Part shown: positions 10,981 through 25,380 of the stretch, in pieces
How the letters are laid out: every line of letters begins with the position of its first letter
Numbering within the stretch: position 1 is the first letter of the stretch
Assembly (NCBI GenBank): GCA_003560095.1
Contig: PWJI01000050.1
Coordinates: 1-40,992, forward strand
DNA from: Candidatus Nealsoniibacteriota bacterium
Lineage (GTDB): Bacteria > Patescibacteriota > Minisyncoccia > Minisyncoccales > PWPS01
Length of the DNA stretch: 40,992 bases
Reading direction: 5' to 3'
Notes under the pieces: model-generated
Databases searched by the model: none
What the model saw: only the letters and a program-made list of their open reading frames with translations
What the model was told of the DNA's origin: nothing
Program-made: the position numbers and the translations under genes

Positions 10981-11030
10981 AAATAGGAAATAGTTTTCTT
11001 TTATTCGTAATTATTTTTTAATAAAACAAT

Positions 11031-11185
11031 AGTACGCGAAGGTGTAGGACAGTTTATTTTTATGGTACAATTGGGCAATATAAATTAATTAAAGAATTTA
11101 TGAACAAACAAATATCAACAGTAGTAGGAATTTTAATAATTTTACTTGTTGCCGGAGTAGCGGGAGCAAGTGTTTTATTTTTAAG
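11031..11185 (+). repeat. Copy 1 of a duplicated promoter plus membrane-anchor module
   Basis: GTACGCGAAGGTGTAGGACAGTTTATTTTTATGGTACAATTGGG...AAATTAATTAAAGAATTTATGAACAAACAAATATCAACA matches 12405-12560. Confidence 0.8.
11061..11071 (+). promoter_or_regulatory. Extended -10 promoter of the serpin gene
   Basis: TATGGTACAAT (TGnTACAAT), conserved in the second copy as TATGGTATAAT. Confidence 0.55.
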
Positions 11186-12365
11186 TCAAAGAGATCAAGA
11201 TAAAGATGATATTTTCGTGGATGATGTTTCTGTGGATGAAATTTCTGTGGGTGATATTTCTTCTCGTGAAGATTTTTCTTTTGAGGTTTTTACTAAAGAA
11301 CTGGATGAAAAAAAGAACATTTTTATTTCTCCCTATAGTATTCATACAGCCATGCTCCTTGCTTATATCGGAGCAGATGGCAATACAAAGGAAGAAATGA
11401 AAAAGGCTCTCGTTCTTATAGGAATGGAAGAGAAAGAAATAAAAAAAGAAGCATTGGAGCTTAAAGTTCATTTGGAAGAAGTTTCCGAAAGCACGGAGGT
11501 TTCTGTTGCGAATGCTCTATTTCTAAAAGAGAACATTCCTTTCTTGGATAGTTATAAAAAGGATGGGGAAAAATATTTTGATGCCAAGATAGACTATCTT
11601 CCTTCCACAGGAGAATCGATAAACAAATGGGTTAGTGATAAAACCAATGGACTCATACCGGAAATTATTGATTCGGGGCCTATTTCAGATGATGTTATTA
11701 GTTACTTGATAAATGCCATTTATTTTAAAGGATTTTGGGAGAACGAATTTAATGAAAGAAACACCGAAAAGAGATTATTTTACGGAGTAGAAGAAAAAGA
11801 AATAGATATGATGCAAAGAGAAAGTTCTTACTTTCATACAATGAATGAGGAAATGCAGGCGGTGACCATAGAGTACAAAGAAGGAGATTATCTTTTTCAT
11901 GCCTTCATGCCTAAAAAGGGAAGCTTAAGTGATCTTTATAGAGAATTCATAGAAGAAGGTTTTGGAGAAATGAGACCTAGAAGGAGGGGTGAAATAATTT
12001 TGCGTTTACCAAAATTTACTATGAGAAGTAGTTTGGAGCTTAGTGACACGCTGAAAGATTTAGGAATAAGAAATGCTTTTAATATAGCGGATGCAGATTT
12101 TTCACAAATGGCTGACTTGGAAGCTATGGAAGATAATATATTTATAAATAGCGTTATCCACAAATCTTTTATTGAAGTAGAAGAAGAAGGAACGGAAGCG
12201 GCGGCGGTTACAGCAGTAGAGTATTGGGATGCAGACATGCCTGTTGAAGAAGAGCCCACTCCGATAGTGGAATTCAATAAGCCATTTTTCTTTGTAATAG
12301 AAGAAGCAAAGACGGAAACTATTCTTTTTATGGGACAGCTTGTTGATCCTACTGACTTAGAATAG
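11100..12365 (+). CDS. Serpin family protein, N-terminally membrane-anchored
   Basis: NIFISPYSIHTAMLLAYIGADGNTKEEMKKAL; INAIYFKGFWENEF; hinge EEEGTEAAAVTAVE; FNKPFFFVIEEAKTETILFMGQLVDP. Confidence 0.95.
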   Translation: MNKQISTVVGILIILLVAGVAGASVLFLSQRDQDKDDIFVDDVSVDEISVGDISSREDFSFEVFTKELDEKKNIFISPYSIHTAMLLAYIGADGNTKEEMKKALVLIGMEEKEIKKEALELKVHLEEVSESTEVSVANALFLKENIPFLDSYKKDGEKYFDAKIDYLPSTGESINKWVSDKTNGLIPEIIDSGPISDDVISYLINAIYFKGFWENEFNERNTEKRLFYGVEEKEIDMMQRESSYFHTMNEEMQAVTIEYKEGDYLFHAFMPKKGSLSDLYREFIEEGFGEMRPRRRGEIILRLPKFTMRSSLELSDTLKDLGIRNAFNIADADFSQMADLEAMEDNIFINSVIHKSFIEVEEEGTEAAAVTAVEYWDADMPVEEEPTPIVEFNKPFFFVIEEAKTETILFMGQLVDPTDLE

Positions 12366-12404
12366 TTTTTTACAAAACGGATAACAAAAATATTTCACAA
12401 AAAA

Positions 12405-12560
12405 AGTGCGCGAGGGCGTGGGACAGTTTTATTTTTATGGTATAATCGGAAAATAAAAATTAATTAAATAATTTATGAAAAAACAAATACCAACAACAAT
12501 AGGACTCTTAATAATATCATTTGCTGCTATAGTGGCAGGAACAAGCATTGTTTTAGTAAA
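12405..12560 (+). repeat. Copy 2 of the duplicated promoter plus membrane-anchor module
   Basis: GTGCGCGAGGGCGTGGGACAGTTTTATTTTTATGGTATAATCGG...AAATTAATTAAATAATTTATGAAAAAACAAATACCAACA. Confidence 0.8.
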
Positions 12561-13182
12561 TCAAGAAATTGGAGAAATCGGAGGAGATTTTTCATTTGAA
12601 AGAAAATCTTTAAAAGAGATTGATAAAAATGAGGATGATTTTCAAGAACAAGAAGATGAAAAAGATAGCAATAAAGAAGAAAAAGAAAAGAAAAGTGAAG
12701 AAGAGGAGGGCGAAAAAAACGAAGAATCTAAAAAAGAAGAGAAAGAAAAGGATGAGAAAGAAGGATACTATATAGTAGATGAAGCAGAAAATGTTTTACT
12801 TGATTTTCTTGAATATATGTATATTACAGGAGAATATGAAAAAGCGGCTGAGATATATCTTGGTTTTAAAGAGACGGATCACAACAATAATCTTCGCCCG
12901 ACAGAAGATGATAAGCGTGAGCAACTAGAGTGGACTGCAAGAACAATAGGTTTTGATTCTCCGGGATATGATGTTGAGAAAGTCGAGATAAAAGATACAA
13001 CAGAAGTTTCCAAAGAGGAGTTTAGGTTTGAATTTAGTCTTATAAGAGAAAATGGAGAGGCTGTTCGTTTTGGTCCTTGTTGCGGTGATTTTGAAACTCC
13101 AGAATGGTACACTCACCCTTATTTTGTTAAAAAAGTAGAGGGTGATTATAGAGTTCATGGAGAGCTTCTGTATTTACCTTAA
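12475..13182 (+). CDS. Membrane-anchored protein with highly charged Glu/Lys linker and small C-terminal domain
   Basis: MKKQIPTTIGLLIISFAAIVAGTSIVLVNQ anchor resembles the serpin anchor; EKKSEEEEGEKNEESKKEEKEKDEK linker. Confidence 0.75.
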   Translation: MKKQIPTTIGLLIISFAAIVAGTSIVLVNQEIGEIGGDFSFERKSLKEIDKNEDDFQEQEDEKDSNKEEKEKKSEEEEGEKNEESKKEEKEKDEKEGYYIVDEAENVLLDFLEYMYITGEYEKAAEIYLGFKETDHNNNLRPTEDDKREQLEWTARTIGFDSPGYDVEKVEIKDTTEVSKEEFRFEFSLIRENGEAVRFGPCCGDFETPEWYTHPYFVKKVEGDYRVHGELLYLP

Positions 13183-25113: not shown

Positions 25114-25380
25114 TTACCAGTCTTCTTCGCCACCTTCTTCTTCGCCACCTTCTTCTTCGCCACCTTCTTCTTCGTCCATGTCGTCATCTTCATCCCAGTC
25201 TAAATCTTCGTCATCAAGATCAAGATCATCATCTAAGTCATCTCCGAGATCATCATCCAAGTCATCTCCGAGATCGTCGTCTAAATCATCTCCGAGATCA
25301 TCATCTAAGTCATCTCCGAGGTCATCCTCGCTCATTGCGAAAAATTTTTTATTAAGTTCGTTTTGGTCTGAATTGAACAT
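25114..25380 (-). CDS. Low-complexity, highly acidic Asp/Glu repeat protein
   Basis: MFNSDQNELNKKFFAMSEDDLGDDLDDDLGDDLDDDLGDD...EEEGGEEEGGEEEGGEEDW; internal ATG at 25380 chosen over 25458. Confidence 0.7.
   Translation of the reverse strand: MFNSDQNELNKKFFAMSEDDLGDDLDDDLGDDLDDDLGDDLDDDLGDDLDDDLDLDDEDLDWDEDDDMDEEEGGEEEGGEEEGGEEDW
25119..25330 (-). repeat. Coding tandem repeats: 24-bp units encoding DLGDDLDD and 15-bp units encoding EEGGE
   Basis: Repeated TCATCTCCGAGATCATCATCYAAG and TTCTTCTTCGCCACC. Confidence 0.85.

Follow-up and report, generated by a model that had tools for sequence, protein, structure and literature searches.

The DNA analyzed here (the window) comprises 40,992 nucleotides, i.e., contig PWJI01000050.1 of the Candidatus Nealsoniibacteriota assembly GCA_003560095.1, and represents contig 55 (C55) of a 768 kb draft genome (G000; 55 contigs, estimated contamination 4.5%). 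Two genes on its forward strand, coding for a serpin of 421 aa (11100-12365) and for a protein of 235 aa with a charged linker (12475-13182), start with the same duplicated unit, consisting of a leader of ~85 nt with an extended -10 promoter and the first 30 codons (copy A, 11017-11189; copy B, 12393-12564; ~78% identical). In local alignments, 11017-11178 was paired with 12393-12556 at a score of 149 (mean 27 and maximum 38 in 300 dinucleotide shuffles), the 89 non-coding nt upstream scored 87 when taken alone (maximum 34 in 500 shuffles), and a repeat finder delimited 137 nt with 78% identity (11053-11189 / 12428-12564). The ~150-nt repeat that a preliminary description had placed at 11031-11185 and 12405-12560 is thus real and its coordinates are right within a few bases; the consensus given there masked a one-base indel, one T being absent from copy A in GGACAGTTT(T)ATTTTTATGG, the T-run ahead of the -10. 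Beyond codon 30, the two genes scored 30 (shuffle mean 27) and no match between their ectodomains was obtained in a comparison with low-complexity filtering, which agrees with the earlier statement that the remaining coding sequences do not resemble each other. A simple tandem gene duplication, in which similarity would run through both proteins, was rejected since the similarity ends at codon 30 and the rest of both genes is at shuffle level.

Behind its anchor, the serpin continues with an acidic linker (11190..11264, +), within which homology to the orthologous serpins resumes (about residues 36-45), followed by the serpin domain (11265..12350, +; PF00079, E 1e-90, 305 bits), which was aligned with solved serpins. 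Its hinge, EEEGTEAAAVTAV, fits the inhibitory consensus, and with this hinge intact the protein would be expected to inhibit proteases. The second protein is composed of the anchor, ~65 charged residues forming a D/E/K linker (12565..12762, +; D+E 42% and K+R 20% over residues 33-82), and a small C-terminal domain (12763..13179, +). This ectodomain is 28% identical to the protein encoded at C32:10167, which also has the anchor, and probably adopts an NTF2-like fold (AlphaFold model from two sequences with a modest pLDDT of 65; best fold match the NTF2-like 3k7c, E 4e-3, probability 1.00). Elsewhere in the window, a repeat scan located a 24-nt tandem repeat with at least five units (25199-25342).

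The N-terminal signal anchors of the two proteins, MNKQISTVVGILIILLVAGVAGASVLFLSQ in copy A (11100..11189, +; profile E 1.9e-17; one hydrophobic stretch with a mean KD of 2.79 from residue 8) and MKKQIPTTIGLLIISFAAIVAGTSIVLVNQ in copy B (12475..12564, +; profile E 1.8e-16; mean KD 2.49), follow a 30-residue consensus, M(K/N)KQISTxxGxLIILxVAGVAGASVLFLxQ, with KK at the cytoplasmic end, an 'IST/IPT..G' entry and ~20 hydrophobic residues; K3, I5, T7, and G10 are the best-kept positions, also in diverged copies. All 14 anchor proteins checked in this genome have a single N-terminal TM stretch and none beyond residue 50, and in many of them a D/E-rich linker lies behind the anchor. These features are most readily interpreted as those of an uncleaved signal anchor (N-in/C-out) that would leave the C-terminal domain outside. 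A lipobox was looked for, no Cys was present in the 30-residue anchors of this genome, and by its residues the anchor is not a lipoprotein signal. Bacterial type IV pilin-like class III signals have a Gly or Ala before the cleavage site and a Glu at +5; pilin-like processing was ruled out, as KKQIST has Lys before Q and no Glu is found at the start of the helix. No named library model corresponded to the anchor, and the NCBIfam matches stayed below the cut-off and mostly tracked the charged linkers.

Upstream of the start codons, leader A (11017..11099, +) contains an extended -10, TGG-TACAAT (11063-11071; read from the sequence), and an AT-rich 5' leader that ends in AATTTATG, while leader B (12393..12474, +), which aligns with it at 83% over 75 nt (E 7.8e-16), contains TGG-TATAAT (12438-12446). 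Both elements presumably act as promoters; a scan for TTGACA-type promoters did not call the extended -10 of copy A, and by eye the -10 of the window resembles sequences that precede several unrelated genes of these genomes. The ~85 nt of leader including the -10 are common in full only to the two window copies. Roughly the part from the -10 to the ATG is shared by the C24 copy and by G001:3.2 from the same genus (68-70% over 60 nt vs. a shuffle 95th percentile of 57%), and ~22 nt are shared by C40:43.2, a gene that begins 3 nt past the stop codon of a surface-protein gene located upstream, while nothing convincing was seen upstream of most other anchor copies. When the 5' leader was searched for as a pattern, the two window copies alone were returned, and the spread of the promoter by itself to other genes was rejected, as a search with leader B alone recovered just leader A beyond chance-length matches. 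Since the left edge of the module varies among copies, what stays constant is the anchor, which the promoter accompanies in some cases only. The promoter is therefore the weaker half of the initially proposed promoter-plus-anchor module: beyond the window pair, further copies were found of the 30-codon anchor and not of the complete leader, which weakens the suggestion of a co-regulated surface regulon.

The preliminary description had suggested searching the genome for further copies, and these exist. With 160 nt of copy A as query, seven places were recovered by DNA (E ≤ 6e-8; two in the window, one on C24, two on C40, and two on C17), and a profile built from nine anchors detected nine strong (E ≤ 1e-14) and six weaker places (E 8e-5 to 0.012). 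In one genome, 9 to 15 genes whose products have unrelated outward-facing domains hence start with the same 30-residue anchor; weak members such as the DUF1287 protein (E 0.003) may be convergent hydrophobic starts. The downstream parts include a serpin, META, DUF1287, DUF3221, a divergent InlB B-repeat, the NTF2-like pair C55:12475/C32:10167, and several unknown domains, and an all-against-all comparison of the ectodomains recovered the expected orthologue pair and only three weak matches (C17:5.8/C32:2.4, C17:5.8/G001:3.2, and C32:10.2/C55:12475). The right edge of the module is sharp: ungapped DNA identity among the nine strong copies is 54-88% within codons 1-30 and drops to 23-51% in the 100 nt that follow.

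Outside this genome the anchor is rare at a strict cut-off (E ≤ 1e-4), as it was matched in 5 of 381 genomes of the phylum; at E ≤ 0.01 it was matched in ten of 40 genomes of close relatives, most of them with a single match (own genome included in both counts). This search combined a first-look filter with a 30-position profile, so diverged copies of the anchor would be missed. A closer anchor profile run against genome contigs gave one record, Candidatus Nealsonbacteria PWII01000024.1. No relative of the anchor was present among viral contigs, and a viral source was rejected for this reason.

Several comparisons bear on the age of the copies. The anchor DNA of the window serpin is 88% identical to that of the META gene on C24 and 87% to that of C40:47.9. 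Three genes, each on a different contig, agree completely over 26 nt that include C/G-ending codons (GCC, GCG), as expected from copying and not from protein constraint; the longest exact repeat among the anchors is 32 nt. Between C40:47.9 and its G001 orthologue, DNA identity is 74% for the anchor and 73% for the ectodomain, and the higher identity between paralogues (87% vs. 74%) suggests that the module spread, or was homogenized, after the two species split. Homogenization among copies may thus have taken place, although the tree of the 90-nt anchors lacks resolution and the AU test does not reject the grouping of C40:47.9 with its G001 orthologue (p 0.19). In a triplet count, which has no outgroup and is not polarized, the upstream part of copy A agrees with B over C24 by 14:3 and its anchor with C24 over B by 17:4 (p 2e-4), a mosaic (promoter like the neighbor, anchor like C24) that could also be produced by fast divergence of the anchor of copy B.

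In order to follow an exchange of the front end, the serpins of the same family were compared; they occur in 12 of its 16 genomes (own included), and 14 of the 15 serpins found had a readable start. The full anchor is found only on the window serpin and is missing from the 13 others. Among these, two deep paralogues, the second serpin of the same genome (MIKKEVSRPVG) and the G004 serpin, begin in a loosely similar way, possibly a diffuse ancestral motif, and the rest are plain. This second serpin (L022:2455-3759) groups in the tree with the serpins of G004 and G005. The maximum-likelihood tree places the window serpin as the sister of that of G001 (same genus; support 96/97; 64% identical), next come G010 and G013, and then G008, G015, and G014; G001 and all of these start with a plain MKKhhhh. 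The surroundings differ as well: in G001, G010, and G013 a conserved companion gene of ~200 aa comes after the serpin (with comF nearby in G001 and G010), whereas in the window it sits between uvrC and relA, beside another cassette gene. The simplest account is that a relocated serpin lost its own front and received the cassette (promoter, leader, and anchor); this serpin swap is a single well-polarized event. DUF1287 represents a weaker second case, its G001 orthologue having an unrelated N-terminus and the copy in the genome of the window only a weak anchor (E 0.003). Within the family, no orthologues of META or of the 12475 ectodomain were found, so their swaps cannot be polarized.

The segment 7875-14866 of the window is a variable spot between a uvrA-uvrC-hydrolase and a DUF5320-DUF134-relA block; here it holds both anchor genes, and two other genes stand between the same conserved blocks in G004, a genome of the same genus. 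In G001, the relA-like gene (L116:1241-2800) is split by an in-frame TAG, possibly a sequencing error or a real break.

A common module thus stands ahead of unrelated downstream parts, and the serpin has a different N-terminus in its nearest orthologues and a different context in three relatives. The best reading overall, which we hold to be quite probable, is that a 5' cassette has been copied onto unrelated genes for exported domains and has replaced the front of the serpin, i.e., terminal reassortment. The cassette would consist of a leader of variable length, which in the window includes an extended -10 promoter, and 30 signal-anchor codons, and recombination would place it on the fronts of such genes. 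In the case of the serpin, the original promoter and N-terminus would have been replaced, and the gene would now occupy the variable spot flanked by the uvrA-uvrC and DUF134-relA blocks, away from where relatives have it. Each resulting protein would have its ectodomain held outside the membrane on a linker. The reusable 5'/N-terminal module envisaged at the outset is in this way supported by the additional genomic copies, by their unrelated ectodomains, and by the serpin orthologues with a different N-terminus. One recombination would supply export and, in some cases, expression. The renewal of surface proteins in genome-reduced Patescibacteria is poorly understood; new ones seem to arise here by front-end change in a tiny, probably uncultured bacterium, and a front-end cassette with orthologues that keep a different start makes the mechanism traceable. 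Metagenomes lend themselves to testing this idea, through a search for the anchor and a comparison of the starts of orthologous domains. A bolder version, in which this 'QIST anchor' would be a lineage-specific display signal, both a recognized sorting signal and an actively spreading cassette that replaces promoters and starts, appears rather unlikely; if true, the QIST display cassette would offer a tiny, possibly host-dependent bacterium a fast route to surface expression of any domain.

Alternatively, the anchor genes may descend from one ancestral membrane protein that was duplicated long ago and whose ectodomains diverged or were replaced piecemeal while the constrained anchor remained. 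The occurrence of the anchor across several genera within the family and the order, the K3, I5, T7, and G10 pattern kept in diverged copies, and the equal divergence of anchor and ectodomain between C40:47.9 and G001 (74% and 73% at the DNA level) would fit such an old paralogous family, which we nevertheless consider unlikely, as a serpin fold cannot derive by divergence from a META or NTF2 domain, there are orthologous serpins that begin with another N-terminus, the copies share non-coding leader and synonymous positions, and DNA identity ends at codon 30. It is also quite improbable that a dedicated insertase or protease of the lineage recognizes the IST..G.LII entry, and that selection more than copying keeps the anchor on its cargos: most genomes of the same family lack the anchor at the cut-off used and its residues are compatible with a plain signal anchor, even if conservation is strongest in the entry residues (K3, I5, T7, G10) and the copies are found on surface-type domains, several of them adjoining peptidoglycan-binding surface proteins. 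Nothing points to a phase-variable locus of the mycoplasma vsp/vpma type, in which repeated 5' ends serve as recombination sites for switching the expressed ectodomain, and this is the most remote of the alternatives, given that the copies lie on different contigs, are 54-88% identical, each front their own complete gene (in the window each with its own -10), and share exact repeats of 32 nt at most, all this in spite of the same anatomy, i.e., a conserved 5' UTR and N-terminal codons before unrelated coding sequence (PMC2268961).

The preferred reading, the copying of a 5' cassette, has counterparts in known systems. The term terminal reassortment was coined for type III secretion signals with their regulatory promoter, and the process was reportedly described for type III effectors by Stavrinides, Ma, and Guttman in 2006. 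According to PMC7555288, in which that study is cited, a new exported protein arises there when an N-terminal export module that is already present becomes fused with a gene unrelated to it. Our case is alike in having a common 5'/N-terminal part on unrelated downstream parts and, for the serpin and less clearly for DUF1287, a downstream part that occurs elsewhere with a different terminus; it differs in that the module is a membrane anchor (TM helix) in a probable Patescibacterium and the sequence gives no indication of injection. The vsp/vpma genes of mycoplasmas have conserved 5' UTRs and N-termini and non-conserved remainders (PMC2268961), an arrangement that recurs here (the full leader just in the window pair); unlike them, the anchors of this genome have no lipobox Cys, and the copies are scattered, have diverged, and each belong to a gene of their own, instead of forming a single-promoter locus with near-identical recombination sites. 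According to PMC11898559, YSIRK/G-S signal peptides are a conserved N-terminal motif on otherwise different Gram-positive surface proteins, which is similar to the situation here, except that our anchor has no YSIRK motif, looks uncleaved, and was apparently copied at the DNA level together with leader. Injected effectors and the surface genes of mycoplasmas provide precedents for the idea, and in the literature searched we found no description of it for a membrane anchor in this group.

Some neighbors of the anchor genes deserve mention. Two large surface proteins (L023:5255-7555, -; L024:7079-8722, +) have a common signal peptide, a peptidoglycan-binding domain, and a C-terminal Lcl_C-like domain, with unrelated middles, and represent a second reused front; anchor genes adjoin both. 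At L078:2534-5103 in the genome of the window and at L076:152-3018 in G013, an anchor gene is located beside seemingly the same sigma-factor-type genes (identity as sigma factors judged by eye), and the ectodomains of the two anchor genes differ, one being DUF1287 and the other an unknown one.
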